Positions 1,187 through 12,500 of a stretch of DNA of 64,000 bases are shown in pieces. Each line of letters begins with the position of its first letter. Position 1 is the first letter of the stretch. The stretch comes from Halobaculum saliterrae (GTDB lineage: Archaea > Halobacteriota > Halobacteria > Halobacteriales > Haloferacaceae). The notes beneath the pieces were generated by a model. That model did not search any database. It was not told where the DNA came from and saw only the letters and a program-made list of their open reading frames with translations. The translations under genes were made by a program, and so were the position numbers. Where the stretch lies: positions 124,301 to 188,300 of the forward strand of contig NZ_WUUS01000001.1 in the NCBI RefSeq assembly GCF_009831625.1. Direction: 5' to 3'.

Positions 1187-2539
1187 ATGAGCGACGGTAT
1201 CCACCTCAACCTCTTCACGATGAACTCCGTGGAGCACGTCTCTCCGGGATCGTGGACACACCCGGCGGACCGCTCCGCCGAGTACAGAGACAGGGAGTAC
1301 TGGACGGACGTAGCGAGAACCGCCGAACGCGGCGGCTTCGCTGCGGTGTTCTTCGCCGACGTGCGCGGTATCTACGACGTGTACGGCGGCGACCGCGAGA
1401 CCGCCATCGAGCACGCGGTGCAGACCCCCTCGAACGACCCCGGCTACCTCGTGCCCGCGATGGCCGAGGTGACCGACTCGCTCGGGTTCGCGGTCACGAA
1501 GTCGACCACCTACACCCACCCGTACCAGCTCGCGCGGGAGTTCTCGACGCTGGATCACCTCACCGACGGCCGGGTCGCGTTCAACGTCGTCACCTCCTAC
1601 CTGGAGTCGGCGGCGGCGAACCTCGGCCTCGACGAGCGCATGGACAAGGAAACGCGGTACGACCGCGCCGACGAGTTCATGGACGTCTGTTACGCGCTGT
1701 GGGAGGACTCGTGGGACGACGACGCGGTCGTCCGCGATCGCGAGTCGGGCGTCTTCAGCGACCCGGCGAAGGTCCACGAGATCGACCACGAGGGCGAGTT
1801 CTTCGACGTGCCCGGACCCCACGGCTGTGAGCCGTCGCCGCAGCGCAGTCCCGTGATCTTCCAGGCGGGCTCCTCCGACCGCGGGCGCGACTTCGCCGCC
1901 GCCAACGCGGAGGCGGTGTTCTGTTCGCAGCCCACCGAGCACGGCGTCCGCGAGTACATGGAGGACCTGCGCGAGCGTGCCGCCGACCTCGGCAGGGATC
2001 CCGACGACCTCGCGTTCTTCCCGGGCGTCGTTCCCGTCGTCGCCGAGACGGAGGAGGCGGCGGAGGCGAAGTACGAGCGCCTGCTGGAGACGGTCGACGT
2101 GGAGGCGACGCTCGCGCTGCTGTCGGGCTTTCTCGACATGGACCTCTCGGAACTCGACCCCGATCAGCGGATCGAGCACATCGAGACCGACGCGATCCAG
2201 GGGACGATGAACGCCTTCACCAAGTCCGACCCGGACCGGGAGTGGACGGTCCGCGAGGTCGCGCAGTTCTCCGGCCTCGGTACCACCTCGCCGGTCGTCG
2301 TCGGCACGCCCGAACAGGTTGCCGACGAACTGCAGTACTGGTACGAGGAGGTGGGCGTCGACGGATTCAACGTGAAGGAGGTGCTCCGCACCGGGAGCCT
2401 CGACGACGTGGTCGACCTCCTCGTTCCGGAACTGCGCGCGCGAGACCTCCTCGCGGAACCGACCCCCGGGGAGACCCTCCGCGGGCGGCTCCTCGGCGAC
2501 GGACCGCGGCTCGCTCCCTCGCATCCCGCACGCCAGTGA
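1187..2539 (+). CDS. FMN-dependent monooxygenase of the NtaA/SnaA/SoxA (luciferase-like) family
   Basis: The 450-aa product matches the two-component, FMNH2-dependent monooxygenase family that acts on nitrilotriacetate, sulfonates or sulfides with a separate flavin reductase. Visible family signatures are the N-terminal HLNLFTMNSVEH strand, the WTDVARTAERGGF helix, the STLDHLTDGRVAFNVVTSY flavin-site block and the SPVIFQAGSSDRGRDFAA block. Its length equals the family norm, and the ATG at 1187 fits the N-terminus. No flavin reductase or sulfur/amine transporter gene is adjacent, so the substrate cannot be inferred. It is transcribed alone, with a possible small RNA just downstream. Confidence 0.88.
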   Translation: MSDGIHLNLFTMNSVEHVSPGSWTHPADRSAEYRDREYWTDVARTAERGGFAAVFFADVRGIYDVYGGDRETAIEHAVQTPSNDPGYLVPAMAEVTDSLGFAVTKSTTYTHPYQLAREFSTLDHLTDGRVAFNVVTSYLESAAANLGLDERMDKETRYDRADEFMDVCYALWEDSWDDDAVVRDRESGVFSDPAKVHEIDHEGEFFDVPGPHGCEPSPQRSPVIFQAGSSDRGRDFAAANAEAVFCSQPTEHGVREYMEDLRERAADLGRDPDDLAFFPGVVPVVAETEEAAEAKYERLLETVDVEATLALLSGFLDMDLSELDPDQRIEHIETDAIQGTMNAFTKSDPDREWTVREVAQFSGLGTTSPVVVGTPEQVADELQYWYEEVGVDGFNVKEVLRTGSLDDVVDLLVPELRARDLLAEPTPGETLRGRLLGDGPRLAPSHPARQ

Positions 2540-2647
2540 ATAAATGAACGGCGTTCCGTTCGAAACGATCGCGACCGCCCTCGCCGAGGCGTACACGCAG
2601 TACGTCCGGCGGTTTCGATCAGGGACGGTACGGCCGGCGCCAACATC

Positions 2648-2765
2648 GTTAAGTACTCGCACCCGCTTGTCTCAGGTGACGCTTCGTCTGGAGGGCCGAA
2701 GCGTCAGCGGGGACCAATTCAGGGCGGAACGCGCGCCGCTCTTTTCACCGGCGCGCGTTCCTCCC
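2648..2765 (+). ncRNA. Putative structured small RNA with two perfect hairpins
   Basis: A TATA-like GTTAAGTA lies at 2648-2655. About 25 nt downstream a perfect 10-bp stem (2677-2686 with 2697-2706) begins, followed by a perfect 13-bp GC-rich stem (2726-2738 with 2749-2761) around a 10-nt pyrimidine-rich loop. The spacing fits transcription starting at about 2674-2680 on the plus strand. No open frame explains the sequence. A minus-strand role, as a terminator for the small gene at 2859-3047, is also possible because stems read the same on both strands. I do not recognise the RNA family. Confidence 0.4.
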
Positions 2766-2858
2766 ACGTTTCACACCTGCGAGCGACCGCTGTGTGACTG
2801 CGAACGGTATCGTGTCCGAGAGCCGTCGGCTCAGCACCGTACCCGTCAGCGCAGGTAG

Positions 2859-3047
2859 TCACCCGTCGGTCGGCGGATTGCGGAACACGCCGTCGGCGAT
2901 GGCGAGGCCGCCGACCACCGAACCCGCGGGCGCCGTCACCCGAAACGGCACGCCGAACGCCGTCGTCGCGAACACGGCCGCGAACAGGCTCGCGCCGATG
3001 AGCGCGAGGATCACGTCCGGACGCGACAGCCCGTCAGCCGGGAGCAT
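2859..3047 (-). CDS. Small haloarchaeal membrane protein
   Basis: The 62-aa product has one or two hydrophobic segments (about residues 11-32 and 38-52) separated by a short polar turn, so it is predicted to sit in the membrane. Tiny proteins starting with a similar RPDVILALI motif are common in haloarchaea, with no assigned function. The ATG at 3047 is the only good start. It diverges from the broken gene at 3116 with 68 bp between them. Confidence 0.6.
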   Translation of the reverse strand: MLPADGLSRPDVILALIGASLFAAVFATTAFGVPFRVTAPAGSVVGGLAIADGVFRNPPTDG

Positions 3048-3115
3048 GGTAATTACATCTCATTAGAGACGGAAATCCCTTGGGATCGTTTCGGACCCGC
3101 CGGAACAGGGAGGCG

Positions 3116-3321
3116 ATGGCCGAACGACACCCGAACATGCCACAGCTCCAGTTCGGCACCGAGATCCGGCCGACGACCGACGAGAGGGACACGGTCGCGA
3201 CGACGGAGTATCTGGTCGACGATCGAGACATCGTCGAATCGATCTCAAGGTGACGTTCACCGAGCACGCCGGCGCGGAGTTGATGGGATACGACCGCGTC
3301 GGCGGCGACTGGGAGGGATGA
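3116..3321 (+). pseudogene. Frameshifted small acidic protein gene
   Basis: Frame 1 from the ATG at 3116 reads a haloarchaeal-looking acidic sequence (MAERHPNMPQLQFGTEI, then a VATTEYLVDDRDIVES segment) and stops at 3251-3253. The next frame, from about 3241, continues naturally as DLKVTFTEHAGAELMGYDRV and ends GGDWEG-stop at 3321. Adding one base at about 3239-3241 would join them into one protein of roughly 68 aa. This points to a one-base deletion, or a sequencing error. I do not recognise the family. Confidence 0.5.
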
Positions 3322-3617
3322 ACTCGGAGTCGGTGCGACACACGTCTCGAACGATACCGACGCTAGCCGACCGTTCGGCCGTGTCCTCGTCCGCTTCGTT
3401 GTCCTTTCGACGGCCTCGGAGCGTACAGGCGTCGACGAGTTCGCGAGTAACCCGTCTCTTTGACCGATTTAGCTGAGAGTCCGCGGTACAGAAATTATTT
3501 CCCAACCAGCCGTGTACCTCGCTGCATGAGTTTTCAGTTGGGAGGAGGCAGGGCCACCACAGGGACTTCGTCTAGGGATCCGCTTGCGCTCCCGTCCTCT
3601 CACGGGGACAGAGGGCG

Positions 3618-4913
3618 ATGACGGGGACGAATTTTCTGTTCGTTTCGCTGGACGGACTCATCGGAGATATCGCGTGGCGTGTGAAACAGCACGGAAACGA
3701 CGTGAAGTACGCGATCACGGAGGACGAATTCTCACAGGACGTCTGCGATGGCCTCGTCCCGAAGACCGACGACTGGCGGGCCGAGCTCGAGTGGGCCGAC
3801 GTTGTCGTGATGGACGACAGTTTCGGCCTCGGCCGTGAGGCTGAACGTCTCCGTGAGGAAGGGATTCCGGTCGTCGGCGGCACCGAGTTGACCGACCGAC
3901 TCGAGGAGGACCGGGGGTTCGGACACGAGACGATGCGTGAGTTGGGACTGAACGTCATCGAGTCCCGGATCTTCGAGAGCCTCGACGCCGGCATCGAGTA
4001 CGTCCGAAACAACCCAGCGCCCTACGTTCTGAAACCGAGCGGGGACACGCAGAACTTCAACGAACTTCTCTACGTCGGGCAATCAGAGGACGGCGCCGAC
4101 GTCGTACAGATGCTCCAACGGTATCGGGACAAGTTGGACGGCGAGGTCGAGGAGTTCCAGTTACAGCTCCGGAAAACCGGCATCGAGATCTCCGTCTGCG
4201 GGTTCTTCGACGGAGAACAGTTCGTCGAGCCGATCAATTACACGTTCGAACACAAACGGCTGTTCCCGGGTGACCTCGGCCCGATGACCGGAGAGATGGG
4301 AACGGCGATGTTCTGGGGTCCCCCGAACCGGCTGTTTCACGGGACGATCGCACCGTTCGAGCCTCTCCTCCGTAAGGAAGGGTACGTCGGCGCGTTCGAC
4401 ATCAACTGTATCGTCAACGGCGACGGGATCTTCCCGCTTGAGATCACGTCTCGGTTCGGCTATCCACAGATCGCGATCCAGGAAGCCGCGATGGAGACAC
4501 CGATCGACGACTTCCTGTACGGACTGGCGGCCGGGACCGACCCGGAACTCGAAACGCACGACGGCTTCCAAGTCGGGTTGCGGGTTTGCGTCCCGCCGTT
4601 CCCGGCCGACGACGTCGACTGGTTCGAGGAGCACTCGCGTGACCTGCAGATCGGGTTCCGCGAGGAGGGGCTTCCGGACGGCATTCATCTCGAGGACATG
4701 AAACACACGGACGGCGAGTTCCGCGTTGCGGGCGAGACGGGCGAAGTCCTCGTTGCGACCGGGCTGGGCGAGACGATGCAGGCTGCAAAGACCGAGGCCG
4801 AGGAACGTGCCGACGATGTCGTTCTCCCCAACAATTTTTACCGCACCGATATCGGTTCGAAGTGGCAAAAGGAGGCCGAGCAGTTGATCCGCTGGGGATA
4901 CCTTCGCAACTAG
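3618..4913 (+). CDS. PurD-like ATP-grasp ligase of unknown substrate
   Basis: The 431-aa product is an ATP-grasp protein resembling phosphoribosylamine-glycine ligase (PurD). Seen directly: a Rossmann-like N-terminus (residues 5-66), the nucleotide-binding YVLKPSG at 136-142, the PurD-like block EHKRLFPGDLGPMTGEMGTA at 211-230, and the metal/nucleotide segment PLEITSRFGYPQ at 273-284 (compare EFNCRFGDPE in PurD). The N-terminal GGGGREH glycine loop of true PurD is missing, so a role in purine synthesis is doubtful. ATP-grasp ligases join a carboxylate to an amine or thiol via acyl-phosphate. A metallopeptidase-like gene follows 61 bp downstream on the same strand. GC is lower than in most of the window. 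Confidence 0.75.
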   Translation: MTGTNFLFVSLDGLIGDIAWRVKQHGNDVKYAITEDEFSQDVCDGLVPKTDDWRAELEWADVVVMDDSFGLGREAERLREEGIPVVGGTELTDRLEEDRGFGHETMRELGLNVIESRIFESLDAGIEYVRNNPAPYVLKPSGDTQNFNELLYVGQSEDGADVVQMLQRYRDKLDGEVEEFQLQLRKTGIEISVCGFFDGEQFVEPINYTFEHKRLFPGDLGPMTGEMGTAMFWGPPNRLFHGTIAPFEPLLRKEGYVGAFDINCIVNGDGIFPLEITSRFGYPQIAIQEAAMETPIDDFLYGLAAGTDPELETHDGFQVGLRVCVPPFPADDVDWFEEHSRDLQIGFREEGLPDGIHLEDMKHTDGEFRVAGETGEVLVATGLGETMQAAKTEAEERADDVVLPNNFYRTDIGSKWQKEAEQLIRWGYLRN

Positions 4914-4974
4914 TCGATCCCACCACAGCGCGTAAAGAAACACCTATCCTCGGCCTGCCGCATAGGGACCGTGA

Positions 4975-5460
4975 ATGGAGCGTACCCAGATCGAGGAACG
5001 GACCGAACTCCACGACATCGTCACCGGAGTGTACGATCTCCTCTTTCCGGACGATCTGGACTCGGACGAGATCGACCTATACTACATCGACTCCGAGCAC
5101 GTCGAGGCCGAGATCGAGTTTCCCTACATCGGCATCAACCGCGCGGACTGGGAGCGAGAGTGGACAGCCGAACGAAAACTCGAGGTGCTCCTCCACGAGT
5201 TCGCACACGTCGAGGAAGGCCCCGACGAGGCGGACCACGGACCGCGTTTCTACGATCGGCTCGCCGACTTGACGACCACTGCGGAGGCGAAACAGGAAGG
5301 GATCGAGGCGGTCTTCGGGACGTCCCTCGACTTCGAGCGGATCCATGGCCACATCATCGAATCCGTAAACGAGTACACGATCGAGACAGCTAGCGATACG
5401 ATCGAGGGCAGGCGGCGGGTCCTCCGGCAAGAGCTGTCGGACCCCTCCACGACTCGGTAG
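4975..5460 (+). CDS. Small HEXXH zinc metallopeptidase-like protein
   Basis: The 161-aa product carries VLLHEFAHVE at 71-80 with a downstream DHGPRFYDRL (His88). This HEXXH plus His-Gly arrangement resembles SprT/WLM-type zincins: His74 and His78 bind zinc, Glu75 is the general base, and His88 is the probable third ligand. There is no signal peptide or membrane segment, so it should act in the cytoplasm. It is closely similar over its length to the C-terminal domain (425-573) of the convergent gene at 5470, whose stop lies 9 bp away. It probably shares a transcript with the ATP-grasp gene. Its substrate is unknown; it may cleave a conjugate made by that ligase. Confidence 0.7.
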   Translation: MERTQIEERTELHDIVTGVYDLLFPDDLDSDEIDLYYIDSEHVEAEIEFPYIGINRADWEREWTAERKLEVLLHEFAHVEEGPDEADHGPRFYDRLADLTTTAEAKQEGIEAVFGTSLDFERIHGHIIESVNEYTIETASDTIEGRRRVLRQELSDPSTTR

Positions 5461-5469
5461 CGGTCGCGT

Positions 5470-7191
5470 TCATCGGGGGAAGAACTGTTCACGGAGCCAT
5501 CGTTTCCGTTCGTCGATGTCATCACAGTCCTCTTCGATCGTCTCCTCGTGGACGGATTCGATGATAGACCGACGGACGCCGTCGAAGTCGATGTCCTCGT
5601 CGAACGTCGCTTCGAGTTCCGGTTGCCAGTCGGCGGCGATCGCTGTGATCTCGAGGAGGCGCTCGTAGAACTCGTCGCCGTGGTCGCGCTCGTCCGGTTC
5701 CTCCTCGACGTGCGCGAGTTCGTGAAGTAACACCTCGAGGCGTCGCTCGACCGGCCACTGTCGCCAGTAGTGGAAGTTGATTCCGACCTCCGGAAGGTAG
5801 ACGTCCGCCTCCTCGTCCTCGTGTAGAAGTTGATTTAATTCGATCTCGTCCGGGGAGATCGAGTCCTCAAAGACGACATTGTAGAGCGCAGCGATCGATC
5901 CCTTGATCGAGGCTCGTTCCTCGGGCGTGGTCACGACGCCCCCGGATCCCAGTTCGCCGTGAGGGGTTTCGATCCGAGCGACTGTTTCGTCGGCGAATTC
6001 GGCGGCTTCCACCGGCGTTCCACGAGCACGCTGTCGGAACAGATCTCGAGGGAGTACACCGTCCGCGAGCGTCCGTGAGATCGCGGATCGAACGAGACTC
6101 GCGGCGTCACTCCAGCCGAGATACTCGAACAACAGACGGCCGGCGAGCACCAGCGGGATCGGGTTCGTTCCGGGCGTCGCCGACTGCCTGTGCCCGGACG
6201 AGTGTGCGGTGACGAGAAGCGTTCCGTCGCCGAGTCCGAGATCTGCTGACTCGCTGGTTTGCCCGACTGCCGTGTTAGCCACAGTTGAGAGATACGTCCC
6301 GCCCAGAGCCGGGGCAAGGATCACGTCGTACTCGTCCGGATCGACCAGTAGGTCACGACAGAGTTCCTCAGTTCGACGTTCGAGGAGGACGAGTTCGTCC
6401 TCGGGGAACGCCTGATACTCCTCACGGAACGTCGCTTCGTCCACGACGCTGTCGCCGTACTCCGCATCGATGTACGCACGTGCCCACGATACGAACGAGC
6501 CCTCCGAGGCCGGCCGCAGGTCCCCTTGGTGGGAGATCGTGACCGTCCTCCGATCGTGTTCGAACGCGTATTCGAGTGCCACATCGACGAGCGCTTCGGT
6601 CCCGCTCTGTGAGATAGGGCTGACGCTATACCCGGTCGGATCGTCCGGGACTCGTTCGGCGCCGTCAGTTCGAAGCAGACAGTCGCGAAGCCTTCGTGCG
6701 TCACGTGTCCCCGGCCCGTACTCGAGTGAGGCGGCAACGTCCTCGGAGACATCCCTGAAGAGGGTGCTATCCAGATCACCGCCACGAATCGGTGAGGGAT
6801 GCCGCGCGATGTCCGAACAGCGAGTCGTCGCGGTCACGATCTCGAGACGACTGCGGATCTCGTTCCCGAGCGCGAGCGCCTCTCGACGGTCTCCGGAAAG
6901 TGGTCCAAGGATCCCGAGACGAAACCGTCGGAACGCACGGATCGTCTCTTTCGGGAGGGGATCCCCGTACCGTTCTCGCGCTTCCTCACCGGTATAGACT
7001 CGCATCCAGTGAATTTCCCGCCCCGTCCGTTCGACAGCCGTGTCGAGTATCCGACGAGCCGCCGAGACGAGTTCCTCGTTGACACCCGGGGAAAACGGAA
7101 CGATCGGTGCTTCAGGCGGGGTAAAGTCGCCTTCGTACGTGACCGCCGTTCCCCTTGGGGGAACGGATATCTGTTCGAAATCCCGAGTCAT
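5470..7191 (-). CDS. Inactive isocitrate-dehydrogenase-like domain fused to a HEXXH metallopeptidase domain
   Basis: The 573-aa product has two parts. Residues 8-385 align from memory, block by block, with NADP isocitrate dehydrogenase: IHWMRVYTGEEARERYG (60-76), TLFRDVSEDVAASLEY (143-158), VTISHQGD (217-224), DEYDVILAPALGGTYLS (286-302), LFEYLGWSDAA (354-364). Against E. coli Icd numbering the key residues are changed: Ser113 to Ala107, Asn115 to Gly109, Arg129 to Thr123, Tyr160 to Ala153, Lys230 to Gln222, Asp307 to Thr299 and Asp311 to Thr303. Arg153 is kept as Arg146. Loss of the catalytic Lys and Tyr and of two metal Asp residues predicts no dehydrogenase activity. Residues 425-573 are a zincin with HELAH at 490-494 and His504, paralogous to the gene at 4975. 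Confidence 0.75.
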   Translation of the reverse strand: MTRDFEQISVPPRGTAVTYEGDFTPPEAPIVPFSPGVNEELVSAARRILDTAVERTGREIHWMRVYTGEEARERYGDPLPKETIRAFRRFRLGILGPLSGDRREALALGNEIRSRLEIVTATTRCSDIARHPSPIRGGDLDSTLFRDVSEDVAASLEYGPGTRDARRLRDCLLRTDGAERVPDDPTGYSVSPISQSGTEALVDVALEYAFEHDRRTVTISHQGDLRPASEGSFVSWARAYIDAEYGDSVVDEATFREEYQAFPEDELVLLERRTEELCRDLLVDPDEYDVILAPALGGTYLSTVANTAVGQTSESADLGLGDGTLLVTAHSSGHRQSATPGTNPIPLVLAGRLLFEYLGWSDAASLVRSAISRTLADGVLPRDLFRQRARGTPVEAAEFADETVARIETPHGELGSGGVVTTPEERASIKGSIAALYNVVFEDSISPDEIELNQLLHEDEEADVYLPEVGINFHYWRQWPVERRLEVLLHELAHVEEEPDERDHGDEFYERLLEITAIAADWQPELEATFDEDIDFDGVRRSIIESVHEETIEEDCDDIDERKRWLREQFFPR

Positions 7192-7487
7192 GAGGGAAAT
7201 CCTATCGCCACCCCGGTGAATGTTCGCTCTGCTGTATCACTGTACCTGCCGTCACATCCCGGATCTATCACCACCCGAGGTTCAACAGAGCCGATTCAAA
7301 CGGGTTCGGAACCGATACACGCCGTTCGCGTCCGTTCGATCCGAAATCCTTCTCGTCACGCACCGTTTCGCTCTTCGTGACTGCGAGAGAAGGGATTTGA
7401 ACCACATCCGGACGTGCTCGCTGCGCTGCGCGTCCGGTCTGGTTCAACTCCTCCCGGAACGGTTCGGGGGCCTTCGGCCCCACTCAT
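7192..7487. other. Spacer between the accessory module and tRNA-Leu
   Basis: This interval has no convincing gene. It contains an imperfect copy of the tRNA-Leu 3' end (7383-7403), an inverted repeat around 7399-7446 (GAACCA...CCGGACG paired with CGTCCGG...TGGTTC), and a GGGGGCC-TTC-GGCCCC hairpin at about 7466-7480. These features are listed separately or in the findings. Confidence 0.5.
7383..7403 (-). repeat. Partial duplicate of the tRNA-Leu 3' end (attachment-site remnant)
   Basis: The 21 bp at 7383-7403 match the last 21 nt of the tRNA-Leu gene (7488-7508) at 20 of 21 positions, in the same orientation. Only the tRNA 3' end (acceptor and T-arm side) is repeated. This is the usual signature of an integrase-mediated attachment site at the 3' end of a tRNA gene. 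No integrase gene is visible in the window. Confidence 0.5.
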
Positions 7488-7571
7488 GCGAGGGAAGGGA
7501 TTTGAACCCTCGAACCCCTGAGGGAGCGGATCTTAAGTCCGCCGCCTTTGGCCAAGCTCAGCCACCCTCGC
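7488..7571 (-). tRNA. tRNA-Leu (anticodon UAA)
   Basis: The minus strand folds as an 84-nt class II tRNA. The acceptor stem is GCGAGGG (7571-7565) with CCCTCGC (7494-7488). The anticodon stem GCGGA/TCCGC encloses loop CTTAAGA with anticodon TAA. A long variable arm (GCTCCCTCAGGGG) precedes the T-arm GAGGGTTCAAATCCC. CCA is not encoded. Class II shape and the UAA anticodon identify leucine. Confidence 0.95.
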
Positions 7572-7705
7572 GCGGACGCTCGTTTCGCCGGACGGTGCAA
7601 GTGGATTTCGGTCGCACGCCGGGGATGCTTGCTGCGGCTCCGGGATCGAGGACAGCCCTGCGGAGAGCGACGGATGAATACGTGTCCGGGGCCCTCGTTG
7701 TCGTC

Positions 7706-9352
7706 GTGAGCGACAACACTGACGACACGCTGGACGCGATCACGCGGCGGCGAGTCCTCGCCGGCGCCGGCACCGCGAGCGCGGTCGGCCTCGCCGGGTG
7801 TACCGGCGGGTCGGGAGGCGGCGGGTCCGAGACCGACGCGGCCGGGACGGGCGACGCCGAGTCGACCACCGCGACGACCGGCGGCGGGACGCTGAACTTC
7901 GCGCAGGCGAAGTCGCCGCTGGACTTCGACCCGCTGAAGGCCAACGACGTCCCGTCGCTGCAGGTCGTCGAACAGGTCTTCGACAGCCTCTACACGTACG
8001 GCGAGGGGACCGAGCTCGTTCCCCAGCTCGCCGCCGGCGAGCCGGAGGTCAACGACGACGCCACGCAGTACGTCGTCGAGCTCCGCGAGGGACTCACGTT
8101 CCACAACGGCGAGCCGATCACCGCCGAGGACGTGAAGTACTCCTTCCTCGCGCCGGGACGGGAGGAGACCTCCAACGGGTCGGAGTTCACGATGATCGAC
8201 TCCATCACCGTCGTCGATGACCGGACGGTCCAGTTCGACCTGAAGTACGCCTTCGGACCGTTCCGCCACAAGCTCGCGTGGTCGCCGGTGCCGAAGGCCT
8301 ACCGCGAGGAGAACAAGGAGTCGTTCAACCGCGACCCCGTCGGCTCCGGGCCGTTCACGCTGGAGTCGGCCACCGAGGGCGACGAGGTCGTCATGGAGCG
8401 CTGGGACGAGTACCACGGGGGCGCGCCGAGCATCGAGGAGGTGGTCTTCAGCCCCGTCGAGGAACCGACGACGCGGGTGACGACGCTCAAGAACGGCGAG
8501 TTCGACATCGTCCAGACGGTGCCGCCGAAGCTGTACTCGACCGTCGAGAGCCAGGAGGGCTCCTCCATCGCGGAGCGCCAAGGACTGGGCTACTACTACC
8601 TCGCGTTCAACTGCAACGAGGGCCCCACCGCGGACCCGAAGGTCCGTGAGGCCATCGACTACGCGGTGTCGATGGATCAGGCCGTCCAGAACTACATCGA
8701 GCCGGCGGGCACGCGCCTGACCGCGCCGATGCCCGACACGGTCACCGACGCCTGGGACTTCCCGACCGACGAGTGGAGCGACATCGCCCACGACAAGGAC
8801 GTCGACATGGCCGCCCAACTGCTGGAGGAGGCCGGCGTCCCCGAGGACTACTCCTGGAAGATCATCGTCCCGCCGGACGACAAGCGCGAACAGATCGGCG
8901 TCTCGGTCGGCAACGGGCTCCAGGAGGCCGGCTGGAGCAACGTCGAGGTCCAGCGGCTGGACTGGGGGGCGTTCCTCGACAAGTACTCCACCGGCAACGA
9001 GGACGACTACAACATGTACACCCTCGGGTGGGTCGACGAGTTCGACCCCGACGGCTACCTCTACTACATGTTCCACCCCGAGGTGGAAAGCGAGACCAAC
9101 GGCTGTTACTACCGCAACGAGGAGGTCGCCGACAAGCTGACGCAAGCACGGCAGTCGGCCGACCGCGAGGAGCGCAACCGGCTCTACACCGAGGCGACGA
9201 CGACGATACTGGAGGACCGAGCGCACCTGCCCGCGTACAACCTCAAGAACAGCTTCGGCGTTCGGGACACCGTCGAAGGCTTCCGTCCCCACACCGTCGC
9301 CGGGATCAACCCGCGACTGGCCGGGGAAGACACCGTCAGCCTGAACGAGTAA
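7706..9352 (+). CDS. ABC transporter substrate-binding lipoprotein, peptide/nickel (family 5)
   Basis: The product is about 548 aa. The N-terminus has twin arginines (ITRRRVLAGAG), a hydrophobic stretch and a lipobox ending GLAGC, so it is a Tat-exported lipoprotein anchored outside the membrane. A flexible Gly/Ser/Thr linker precedes the binding domain. Family 5 signatures include TFHNGEPITAEDVKYSFL, NRDPVGSGPFTLE and the C-terminal YNLKNSFGV region. It should capture oligopeptides, dipeptides or a similar solute for an ABC importer, but no permease or ATPase gene is adjacent. The frame stays open upstream through the tRNA gene, so the GTG at 7706, just before the signal sequence, was chosen. 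Confidence 0.88.
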   Translation: MSDNTDDTLDAITRRRVLAGAGTASAVGLAGCTGGSGGGGSETDAAGTGDAESTTATTGGGTLNFAQAKSPLDFDPLKANDVPSLQVVEQVFDSLYTYGEGTELVPQLAAGEPEVNDDATQYVVELREGLTFHNGEPITAEDVKYSFLAPGREETSNGSEFTMIDSITVVDDRTVQFDLKYAFGPFRHKLAWSPVPKAYREENKESFNRDPVGSGPFTLESATEGDEVVMERWDEYHGGAPSIEEVVFSPVEEPTTRVTTLKNGEFDIVQTVPPKLYSTVESQEGSSIAERQGLGYYYLAFNCNEGPTADPKVREAIDYAVSMDQAVQNYIEPAGTRLTAPMPDTVTDAWDFPTDEWSDIAHDKDVDMAAQLLEEAGVPEDYSWKIIVPPDDKREQIGVSVGNGLQEAGWSNVEVQRLDWGAFLDKYSTGNEDDYNMYTLGWVDEFDPDGYLYYMFHPEVESETNGCYYRNEEVADKLTQARQSADREERNRLYTEATTTILEDRAHLPAYNLKNSFGVRDTVEGFRPHTVAGINPRLAGEDTVSLNE

Positions 9353-9358
9353 GCGGCA

Positions 9359-9700
9359 TCACCAGTCGACGCTGAGCGTCCCGTCGCCGTGCGGATCCGG
9401 CGCCAGCTCCTCGTCGGTGCGGCGGTCGACGACGTGGATACAGCCGACGTCCTTCTTGGCGGGGCAGACCTCCGCCGCGCGGAGGTTCTCCTCGAGGTCG
9501 TCCTCGCCGACGTAGTACGACTTCGGCCTCGCCATGCCGCTCGTGATGTCCATCTCCCAGTTGTCCGCGACCTCCGCGCACTTGCCCGCGCCGAAGCAGG
9601 CGTTGGCCTCGAAGATGATCTTGTACGGCTTCTCCTCCACCGGCGGCCCGTCGCCGCCGACGTCGCTCGCGGTCTGTACCTCCGCGTCGAGGTCGCTCAT
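9359..9700 (-). CDS. Single-cluster ferredoxin
   Basis: The 113-aa acidic protein has the motif CFGAGKC followed about 40 residues later by CPAKKDVGC. The Cys-x5-Cys spacing, with Gly where the middle Cys normally sits, plus the late Cys-Pro resembles small [3Fe-4S]/[4Fe-4S] ferredoxins that donate electrons to monooxygenases or P450s. It is cytoplasmic. Its stop lies 6 bp from the convergent lipoprotein gene, and it starts 60 bp after the membrane protein gene at 9761, with which it may be cotranscribed. Its redox partner is unknown. Confidence 0.8.
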   Translation of the reverse strand: MSDLDAEVQTASDVGGDGPPVEEKPYKIIFEANACFGAGKCAEVADNWEMDITSGMARPKSYYVGEDDLEENLRAAEVCPAKKDVGCIHVVDRRTDEELAPDPHGDGTLSVDW

Positions 9701-9760: not shown

Positions 9761-10792
9761 TCAGTCCTCCCACTCGACCTCCGTCACCTCGTCCGTCTCC
9801 CGGAGGATGAACGGGCCGATCGACAGCGTGTGCTTCGTCACGGTCGCGATTCGGAGGACGTACGCGAGCAGCACGAGGAACGGGATCGTCGCGACGGTCG
9901 CGGCGACCGCGACGAGGGGAACAAGCGTCCCGACGCCGAACGGAGAATACGTGTACGCCTCCGCGTCGAAGAACGCGACCATGAACACCGACACCAGCAG
10001 CGCGGGGAGCGCCCACGCGAAGACGGCCCGCGAGAGGTCGATCAGCTCCCACTGGAAGTACAGCGTCTTGAAGTGCTCGCGCGCGGGGCCGAACAGCCCG
10101 AGCACCTCGGCGAGCCCGTCGAGCGCCTCCAGCCCCTCCTCGTCGAAGGCGTCGCCGTGCTCGGCGCGGATCCGGTTGGCGGTGAACAGCTTCCACGAGT
10201 AGTTGAAGTTCAGCGCCGAGGAGATCACGTCGAACTCGCCGAAGCGCGCACCGTCGAGTCCGGCCGACACCTCCTCGGCGTTGCCGACGAGGCTCCTCAC
10301 GAGGCCCTCGACGTCCTCGAGTGCCTCGTCGTCGGCGGTGCGGTTCGCGGCCTCGCGCACGTCGCGGGCACGTTCGGCAGACACCTCCACGAGCGCACGA
10401 AGGAACTGCGCCGGCCGCGCGGGACTGACCGAGGCGTCGATCATGTCGGCGGCGTCCTCGCGGAACTCCATGGCCCCGCGCATCCGGTCGCGCTGGTCGC
10501 CGATGGCCCCCAGCTCCTGAGAGAGCACGAGTTGGTTCAGCGTGAGCACGAGGGTGACGCCGGTGATCGTCGCCGTCAGGAAGCCCTGAAAGAGCGTGTC
10601 GATCGAGTCCCCTGACCGGAGGGCCTCCTCGGCCGGCGGGTACAGCAGGCCGGAAGCGAGCAGCACGCCGAACACCCCGGTCACGAGCACGAGAACGACG
10701 AGCCGACGGTCCGCCTCGAGGAAGAGCCACAGCTTCCAGCGGCTCTCGGCGGCTCGCTCGCGCAGCCGGTTGCTCGGCTCGTCGTCGGTCAT
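9761..10792 (-). CDS. Haloarchaeal multi-pass membrane protein
   Basis: The 343-aa product has hydrophobic segments near residues 28-50, 70-90, about 260-282 and 290-320, with a long soluble middle region (about 100-250) predicted to be helical. The architecture suggests two membrane hairpins flanking a cytoplasmic domain. I recognise no catalytic motif. The ATG at 10792 is the first start directly before the conserved-looking TDDEPSNRLRERA; the frame upstream is low-quality sequence. It lies downstream of pspA in the same direction, so a link to envelope stress is possible but unproven. Confidence 0.7.
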   Translation of the reverse strand: MTDDEPSNRLRERAAESRWKLWLFLEADRRLVVLVLVTGVFGVLLASGLLYPPAEEALRSGDSIDTLFQGFLTATITGVTLVLTLNQLVLSQELGAIGDQRDRMRGAMEFREDAADMIDASVSPARPAQFLRALVEVSAERARDVREAANRTADDEALEDVEGLVRSLVGNAEEVSAGLDGARFGEFDVISSALNFNYSWKLFTANRIRAEHGDAFDEEGLEALDGLAEVLGLFGPAREHFKTLYFQWELIDLSRAVFAWALPALLVSVFMVAFFDAEAYTYSPFGVGTLVPLVAVAATVATIPFLVLLAYVLRIATVTKHTLSIGPFILRETDEVTEVEWED

Positions 10793-10952
10793 GACACCAT
10801 CATCTCGACCGGCGATGAAAAGCGGGACGGCCGAGGACACACGGGTGGCAGCAGCGTGTGAGCGTGGACAGGGGCAGAGACGGGGCGAAGACGGGACGAA
10901 ACGGGCAGTATCGAGGACGGACGGTACGGGAGGGTGGCGGGGGTCGACCGTC

Positions 10953-11783
10953 TCACTTCGAGGCGTCGGCGTCCTCCTCCTGTTGGAGCTCCTCCAGCTC
11001 CGCCTCGACCTCCTCGTCGACGAGGTCGTCGGACTCGGTCGCGGTGTCGGCCGCGTCGGCGTCGCCGTCGCCGTCGTCGGCGGAACCCTTCCCCAGTTCG
11101 GCACGCAGCGTCTCCAGCTCGGCGTCCACCTCGCGGTCGGTGCGGCCGGAGCTGAGTTCCCGGTCGATCTCGTCCTCGTCGGAGAGCGCGTCGTCGAACG
11201 CGCCGGTGTCCTGCAGCTCGTCCATCGCCTGCGAGCGCGCCTCCATCTCCTCGGTGCGCTCCTCGGCCCGCTCGATCGAGCGGGCCACGTCGCCCATCTC
11301 GTCGCCGACGCCGGACATCGCCTCCGAGACGCGGGTCGAGGCCTCCGCCGCCTCGTAGCGCGCCTTCATCGTCTCCTTCTTCGTGCGGAACTCCTCGATG
11401 CGGCCCTGAAGCTCGTCCTTCTTGTCTACCAGCCGGTCCTGGGTGTCCTGCAGCTCAGCGATCTGCGTCTCCAGGTCCTCGATCTGGTTCATCTTCGACT
11501 TCTTCTTCTCGAGCGCCTTGCGCGCGAGGTCGTCGCGGTCCTGCTGGACCGCCTCCCGCGCCTGTTCGTTGTGCTTCTCGACGTTCTCCTCAAGGCGACG
11601 CTTCTGGATCTCCAGGCGCTTCTTCTGGGTGGTGAGGTCGGCGATACCCTGTTTCACGTCCTGAAGCTCGTCGCGCATCTGCTCGTAGCTGTAGTCGAGC
11701 GACTCCGACGGGTCCTCCGCTCGGTTGAGGAGCGCGTTGACCTTCGAGCGGACGACGTAGGAGGCGCGAGAGAGGATTCCCAT
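10953..11783 (-). CDS. pspA: PspA/IM30 (ESCRT-III-like) family protein
   Basis: The 276-aa product begins MGILSRASYVVRSKVNALLN, the membrane-binding amphipathic helix of PspA/Vipp1, followed by long coiled-coil helices (about 25-190, for example QKKRLEIQKRRLEENVEKHN). The C-terminal third is a very acidic linker rich in Asp/Glu, a haloarchaeal elaboration. PspA forms ESCRT-III-like polymers that protect membranes under stress. It has its own promoter (TATA at 11808-11814), is probably leaderless, and diverges from a hydrolase gene. The membrane protein and ferredoxin genes lie downstream. Confidence 0.88.
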   Translation of the reverse strand: MGILSRASYVVRSKVNALLNRAEDPSESLDYSYEQMRDELQDVKQGIADLTTQKKRLEIQKRRLEENVEKHNEQAREAVQQDRDDLARKALEKKKSKMNQIEDLETQIAELQDTQDRLVDKKDELQGRIEEFRTKKETMKARYEAAEASTRVSEAMSGVGDEMGDVARSIERAEERTEEMEARSQAMDELQDTGAFDDALSDEDEIDRELSSGRTDREVDAELETLRAELGKGSADDGDGDADAADTATESDDLVDEEVEAELEELQQEEDADASK

Positions 11784-11805
11784 GCTCTCGGCTAGGACAA
11801 CTGGC

Positions 11806-11816
11806 CGTATAAATCT
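11806..11816 (-). promoter_or_regulatory. TATA element of pspA
   Basis: On the minus strand the sequence reads ATTTATACGG, with the A/T core at 11808-11814, 25-31 nt upstream of the pspA ATG. This spacing implies a leaderless transcript. Confidence 0.6.
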
Positions 11817-11873
11817 CACCCGACCGAGAGGACGGTCGACGCCGTTTTGCGGGGCGCGACCGCAGCCGAACGC

Positions 11874-12500
11874 ATGACCGACGTACTCGTGCCGGGCGGA
11901 CGCGACGTGCGCGCCTCGCTCGACCGTGGGGCCGAGTCGGAGGCGACCCCGGCGGACGCGACCGCCGCCGGCGACGCCGACGCCTGCGTGGTCGCGTGTC
12001 CCCCGCATCCGCAGCACCGCGGCCACCGCGGCGACGAGCGCCTCCGGGCGGTCTCGTCGGTCCTGACCGCCGGCGGCGTCGACTGCCTCCGGTTCGACTA
12101 CGGCGACTGGGACGAGGGATACGGCGAGCGCGCCGACGCCCGCAACGCCGTCGCGTGGGCGCGCGAGCGCTACGACCGCGTCGGCCTGTTCGGCTTCAGC
12201 TTCGGGGGCTGTCTGGCCCTGCTGGTCGGATCGGAGGGCGACGCGGACGCCGTCTCGGCGCTGGCGCCGACGGCGCGGCTCGCGTCCGACCTCGACGCCG
12301 TGGCCGCGATGGCGGACATCGACTGCCCCGCGCAGGTGGTGTACGCGACCCGCGACGACACCGCCGACTGGGAGCCGGTCGTCGAGCGCGCGCGGGAACT
12401 CGGGTTCGACCGCCGGGAGTTCTCGGCCGACCACTTCTTCGTCGGGCAGTCGGGGAAGGTCGGCGACGCCGTGGGTGAGTGGCTACTCGACGCGCTGTGA
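11874..12500 (+). CDS. Alpha/beta hydrolase (dienelactone-hydrolase-like)
   Basis: The 208-aa product has the serine-hydrolase nucleophile elbow GFSFGG, an early CPPHPQHRGHRGDERL oxyanion-loop region, a likely acidic residue in YATRDDTADW and a C-terminal His in SADHFFVG. These match small alpha/beta hydrolases often annotated as dienelactone hydrolases. It is cytoplasmic and its substrate is unknown. The ATG at 11874 was preferred over the upstream in-frame start because the preceding residues do not look coding. Its end overlaps the convergent membrane protein gene by 18 bp. Confidence 0.82.
   Translation: MTDVLVPGGRDVRASLDRGAESEATPADATAAGDADACVVACPPHPQHRGHRGDERLRAVSSVLTAGGVDCLRFDYGDWDEGYGERADARNAVAWARERYDRVGLFGFSFGGCLALLVGSEGDADAVSALAPTARLASDLDAVAAMADIDCPAQVVYATRDDTADWEPVVERARELGFDRREFSADHFFVGQSGKVGDAVGEWLLDAL

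Follow-up and report, generated by a model that had tools for sequence, protein, structure and literature searches.

Gene neighborhoods in which an amide-forming ATP-grasp ligase stands beside acyltransferases or peptidases were reportedly described by Iyer et al. in 2009 as ATP-grasp amidoligase/peptidase neighborhoods. To our knowledge, none of them includes a zincin metalloprotease fused to a pseudo-isocitrate dehydrogenase (pseudo-Icd), and pseudoenzymes that derive from core metabolic enzymes and are fused to proteases are, as far as is known, rarely seen in prokaryotes. No report of a pseudo-Icd-protease fusion was found in the literature searched. Such a fusion is encoded in a 64,000-nucleotide stretch of the haloarchaeon Halobaculum saliterrae (contig NZ_WUUS01000001.1, positions 124,301 to 188,300; here called the window), within a group of three genes comprising an ATP-grasp ligase with a PurD fold (gene 1, 3618-4913, plus strand, 431 amino acids), a stand-alone zincin (gene 2, 4975-5460, plus strand, 161 amino acids) and the Icd-zincin fusion (gene 3, 5470-7191, minus strand, 573 amino acids). 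All three open reading frames (ORFs) were present as listed in a preliminary description of this DNA. The same three parts were found in one further genome, at a locus designated L054.

Sequence features of the three proteins

Gene 3 is convergent with genes 1 and 2. Its first 415 residues (positions 5947 to 7191) form a full-length Icd domain, while residues 416 to 573 (positions 5470 to 5946) form a zincin domain with an intact HExxH motif. The Iso_dh profile (PF00180) matched residues 37 to 401 with an E value of 4e-25, and matched the L054 fusion with an E value of 1e-47. The score against TIGR00183 was 212.6 bits, compared with a cutoff of 567, and the domain was ~36% identical to the host Icd and scored 231 bits against the NADP isocitrate dehydrogenase of Archaeoglobus (2iv0). 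The functional roles of the catalytic-site residues are established for Escherichia coli Icd; they were mapped onto the fusions via the host genome's own Icd and are given in E. coli numbering. The substitutions Y160A, K230Q, N232D and D311T were identical in both fusions, D307 was replaced by Thr or Ala and R129 by Thr or Gln, and S113 and N115 were lost. Both fusions retained R119, R153 and N352, and the cofactor residues H339, K344 and Y345 varied between them. As a control, the LeuB of the host, 35% identical to the host Icd, keeps the three Arg, the Tyr, the Lys, the Asn and both Asp. In contrast to NADP isocitrate dehydrogenases, gene 3 thus lacks the catalytic Lys and Tyr, two metal-binding Asp and most substrate ligands, and has a zincin added at its C terminus. 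Since the equally divergent LeuB keeps these residues, the Icd domain is, judged by its sequence, a catalytically dead pseudoenzyme.

Identity between the two fusions was 45% over the Icd domain and 61.5% over the zincin, compared with 72% for the gene 1 pair, making the Icd domain the fastest-changing part. That two fusions so far diverged are intact argues for long selection as folded proteins, and, with reading frames of 573 and 580 codons preserved, the Icd domain appears to have been kept for something other than catalysis. Decayed pseudogenes were considered and rejected, as both fusions are intact and keep their zincin motifs.

The closest described relatives of the zincins are the SprT/Wss1/WLM proteins and the minigluzincins (selecase, jannalysin), with which gene 2 (HEFAH...DH) has in common an HExxH helix, a predicted compact alpha/beta zincin core and a third His placed as in Wss1 and SPRTN. 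It differs from them in reaching ~20% identity at best and in having extra C-terminal helices, and its scores against the Pfam families WLM, YgjP and SprT fell below the cutoffs (17.2 bits for WLM, PF08325, against a gathering score of 26). An AlphaFold2 model with a predicted local distance difference test (pLDDT) score of 85 gave moderate matches, the best Z being 8.3 (BepA and selecase) and that for Wss1 7.5. Among seven zincin relatives, H74, E75, H78 and H88 were invariant, comprising HExxH and the third His, a predicted zinc ligand, and HExxH-x9-H was conserved in the module zincins. The C terminus of gene 3 is 45% identical to gene 2, and the module thus holds the zincin in duplicate. 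More distant zincins occur in other haloarchaea; two of them (L134, 7968-8795, and L136, 7620-8336) adjoin integrase-like genes and have a C-terminal region that we take, on our own reading of the sequence, to be ParB-like, and others lie near integrase-like and methyltransferase-like genes.

Gene 1 most resembles PurD, the glycinamide ribonucleotide (GAR) synthetase, with which it shares the fold of the whole chain (~20% identity over ~395 residues), the ATP-grasp lysine, HK/R and the E-x-x-x-R-F-G motif. Its AlphaFold2 model (pLDDT 90) was closest to GAR synthetase (Z of 35), with Z of 23 to 24 against PurK and PurT, which places the predicted structure in the ATP-grasp fold. The GARS_A profile matched over its cutoff at 37.8 bits. 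Unlike PurD, however, gene 1 lacks the GGREHA loop: at the position of the N-terminal phosphoribosylamine (PRA)-binding loop, SLDGLIGDIAW stands in place of the GGGGREHA of the host PurD. In addition, GDPE is changed to GYPQ and the Mg-ligand Asn to Thr. Against TIGR00877 (purD), gene 1 scored 88.8 bits and the L054 copy 84.3, compared with a cutoff of 288. A genuine purD with the GGREHA loop, scoring 387.7 bits, is located elsewhere in the host genome, and no purine gene adjoins gene 1. The possibility that gene 1 is a true purD was therefore rejected on the basis of its sub-cutoff score, the missing PRA loop and the separate purD. The synteny with core purine genes that would have spoken for a purD was not seen, and the assignment to an amide-forming, PurD-like type without the PurD loop, proposed in the preliminary description, stood. 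Its further assignments, a zincin following the ligase and an opposing Icd-zincin fusion, were likewise borne out by the HExxH motif with its third His and by the Iso_dh match.

Alignment of 30 relatives of gene 1 showed K139, E190, D261, E275 and R279 to be invariant; we take these residues to bind ATP and Mg, as suggested by the alignment with PurD and by what is generally known of the fold. The L054 homologue is 72% identical to gene 1. The two formed a joint clade with a Shimodaira-Hasegawa-like approximate likelihood ratio test (SH-aLRT) value of 100, set on a stem 1.14 substitutions per site long, and have in common 19 departures from otherwise conserved positions (e.g., N148, S192, T209 and R214). 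This long-stemmed clade with its common departures suggests a changed substrate for the module-specific subclade. Immediately upstream, a 31-codon ORF (3526-3621; MSFQLGGGRATTGTSS...) with an AT-rich upstream region has a stop codon overlapping the gene 1 start (ATGA). It is not claimed as a precursor peptide, as no matching small ORF is found upstream in L054. High-GC antisense ORFs such as 4161-4943 (minus strand) were dropped as spurious by a gene caller based on amino acid composition.

Insertion beside tRNA-Leu(UAA) and recurrence in a second genome

These three genes are the entire gene content of an inserted cassette of ~4.0 kb, located between an LLM-oxidoreductase gene (1187-2539) and tRNA-Leu(UAA) (7487-7571, minus strand, 3' end toward the cassette; found by ARAGORN and by Rfam RF00005 at 51.4 bits). 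The approximate boundaries, 3318 to 7350, were drawn from BLASTN comparison with 10 congeners and from GC content. The GC content of 3318-7349 was 61.3%, compared with 69.9% for the remaining window, and ranked second lowest among 1,200 segments of equal length; the lower-GC, tRNA-adjacent setting given in the preliminary description is that of an accessory insert. The cassette was absent from all 10 congeners searched, each of which had an empty site. The gap between the LLM-oxidoreductase gene and the tRNA measured 0.64 to 1.9 kb in these species, compared with 4.95 kb here. In pairwise alignments, homology of the left flank ended at ~3065-3206, or at 3317 in several species, and homology of the right flank resumed at ~7350-7369 in the closest congeners and at 7439-7487 in more diverged ones; between the matching flanks, nothing aligned to any of the 10.

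A repeat search located a 22-bp near-copy (21/22) of the tRNA-Leu 3' end at 7382 to 7403, between the cassette and the tRNA, a candidate remnant of an attachment site. In congeners, one to four copies of this 3'-end motif lie beside the same tRNA (window 7382-7508), a sign of repeated integration events at the tRNA-Leu(UAA) locus of the genus. With the copy at 7382-7403, they make the locus look like a used integration site. The tRNA 3'-end copy is found on one side of the cassette only, the insert has no integrase gene, and a comparison of 3151-3420 with 7251-7420 for a second attachment repeat at the far end gave no common word of 8 to 16 bp. The mode of entry is for these reasons inferred, and the best reading is that the cassette is accessory and was horizontally acquired.

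Strong matches to the zincin family were confined to two of the 392 genomes of the order, the host (G000) and G305, a metagenome-assembled genome of another taxonomic family. The L054 locus belongs to the latter, the contigs being identical up to orientation. In all 170 genomes of the host's taxonomic family, the host alone had the zincin, apart from one weak, distant match, and across the phylum sample (393 genomes) only the host passed 1e-10. At L054, the free zincin (3806-4279, minus strand), the ATP-grasp gene (5635-6969, plus strand) and the Icd-zincin fusion (7692-9431, minus strand, 580 codons) all lie within 6 kb, with two extra genes among them, encoding an AstE/AspA-like (DoeB/AstE-like) deacylase beside the ligase and an Amphi-Trp/DUF1508 protein. 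As the only other genome with the zincin family has all three parts so close together, the association is real but rare, and co-occurrence of the three families was confirmed in this second genome. Identities among the zincins were 61.5% for the fused pair, 41% for the free pair and 42 to 47% between free and fused copies; duplication and fusion of the zincin are therefore most likely older than the split of the two loci. Co-occurrence, the common pattern of loss and the clean empty sites make this more than a chance cluster, a claim limited by its two instances. The absence of the insertion from all congeners, the duplicated zincin, the Icd domain being by its sequence catalytically dead and the frequent, usually solitary occurrence of the parent ATP-grasp family (see below) add to what had been described.

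L054 has several further features. Where its AstE-like and ATP-grasp genes start divergently, a 26-bp unit is repeated three times in tandem (5441-5518). This second module is flanked by a DUF7139 protein that contains five DUF1508 repeats (1976-3394) and by similar proteins encoded at 10676-11389 and 11389-12471, the flanking proteins occurring in near-duplicate pairs.

The viral_contigs set contained no relatives of any of the three genes, PADLOC models gave no match at E values up to 1, and a plasmid search yielded neither the zincin nor the fusion. Viral cargo, plasmid cargo and a known antiphage defense system were rejected on these grounds, and no enrichment in viruses or defense islands was found. 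Phage-record matches to gene 3 were Icd only; several of them carry the annotation of an ordinary icd and may be host DNA.

Proposed function and alternatives

We tentatively read the module as an amidoligase/protease cassette that was acquired horizontally and whose dead Icd domain serves to recruit or sense a target. The ATP-grasp enzyme would use ATP to activate a carboxylate and would attach an amino acid or peptide, through an amide bond, to a protein or small molecule; within the same pathway, the two HExxH zincins may cleave an amide or peptide bond, possibly on a common substrate. Conjugation/deconjugation chemistry, suggested in the preliminary description, is likewise putative. The Icd domain, which would not oxidize isocitrate, could direct or gate the zincin fused to it; its simplest role would be to bind a partner (the host Icd, a different member of the Icd family or the product of the ligase) via the retained Icd fold. 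Aminoacyl transfer fits the wider relatives of gene 1, in which a GNAT/FemAB-type acyltransferase lies directly 3' of the ATP-grasp gene at ~12 of the 57 loci from bacteria and DPANN, and the deacylase beside the L054 ligase counts in favor as well. Several points weigh against this reading. Only two genomes have the module, so that the pathway rests on n = 2, and no substrate, carrier or conserved acceptor peptide was found. Because gene 3 runs in the opposite orientation, the three genes are not a single transcript; the window lacks the deacylase and DUF1508 genes seen at L054; and the fast change of the Icd domain could alternatively reflect relaxed constraint. If the Icd domain does aim or gate the zincin, it would offer an experimentally tractable archaeal case of a tricarboxylic acid (TCA) cycle enzyme repurposed for targeting or sensing.

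The four substitutions common to both fusions are as expected of a pocket that is repurposed rather than decaying, and R119 and R153 are retained. It is conceivable, if rather doubtful, that the pseudo-Icd is a metabolite sensor whose remodeled pocket (Q, D, T, A) takes up a ligand, be it a TCA-like tricarboxylate, a nucleotide or the ligase product, and so switches the fused zincin allosterically, the free zincin being its partner or substrate. However, most carboxylate-binding residues are gone (S113, N115 and R129), and the cofactor residues differ between the two proteins. An integrated-decoy or guard module appears unlikely; the dead Icd would mimic an attacked host enzyme whose perturbation unleashes the zincin, while the ATP-grasp enzyme would make or protect the signal. 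The patchy distribution, the tRNA-adjacent insertion, the fusion of an enzyme mimic to a protease, the faster evolution of the Icd domain than of the ligase (45% versus 72% identity) and the position of distant family zincins near integrases and other accessory genes agree with it. Yet no PADLOC match and no further defense genes were found in the insert, no part was found in viral contigs, and we know of no virus targeting haloarchaeal Icd. A defense role in general is possible, the accessory distribution being the one positive indication.

Equally speculative is a new type of archaeal system that serves conflict or regulation. In it, the dead copy of a TCA cycle enzyme, fused to a metalloprotease, would act as decoy or bait (or enter into mixed dimers with its host counterpart), and the ATP-grasp amidoligase would write a modification for the proteases to read or erase. 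As small molecules are the usual substrates of PurD-type ATP-grasp enzymes and a DoeB/AstE-like deacylase lies beside the L054 ligase, the ligase might instead make an amide metabolite, such as an aminoacyl osmolyte or dipeptide, that the zincins hydrolyze, the Icd domain only stabilizing one of them. This pathway is improbable too, given that SprT/Wss1/minigluzincin-type zincins as a rule cleave proteins and that the insert has no transporter or other biosynthetic gene. Finally, chance juxtaposition through separate insertions with no functional linkage is nearly excluded: in its favor, members of the common parent ATP-grasp family mostly stand alone and have changing neighbors, but in both genomes with strong zincin matches the fusion and a member of the special ATP-grasp subclade share the same 6 kb, and the whole insert consists of only these three genes.

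The wider ATP-grasp family and a flanking repeat

The analysis also brings out a widespread, uncharacterized PurD-like ATP-grasp family that is not purD. At ~50% identity to gene 1, 64 loci were collected from haloarchaea, DPANN, Acidobacteria, Gammaproteobacteria and others. A relative was present in 115 of the 292 genomes of the host class (about 40% of the sampled haloarchaeal genomes), and the host itself has a second copy, 52% identical to gene 1. These proteins have the same invariant residues as gene 1, and the difference is that only the module copies were found beside these zincins. The parent family is normally solitary; among the 25 other haloarchaeal copies, the neighbors vary and no conserved partner gene was found.

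In some bacterial and DPANN lineages, the ATP-grasp gene is followed by a GNAT/FemAB-like acyltransferase (Acetyltransf_6), often with zero spacing, as seen at 12 loci; in Gammaproteobacteria and DPANN, the pair resembles an aminoacyl-transfer system of two genes. Several haloarchaea have half-length family genes, corresponding to query residues ~3-213 and 209-429, and many of these lie in tandem with a full-length gene. The best phage relative of gene 1 is an unannotated ORF in a tailed-phage record (MW202796.1, 42143-43441; L178, 6001-7299), 30% identical over 98% of the length and outside the module subclade, located a few kilobases downstream of a GCN5-type acetyltransferase gene. Other phage-record matches (25 to 27% identity) were set aside as probably true PurD.

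Elsewhere in the window, positions 391-990, which span a small gene at 445-762, have an 84% identical copy in the host genome (G000:C2:93165-93763), possibly a duplicated or mobile element.

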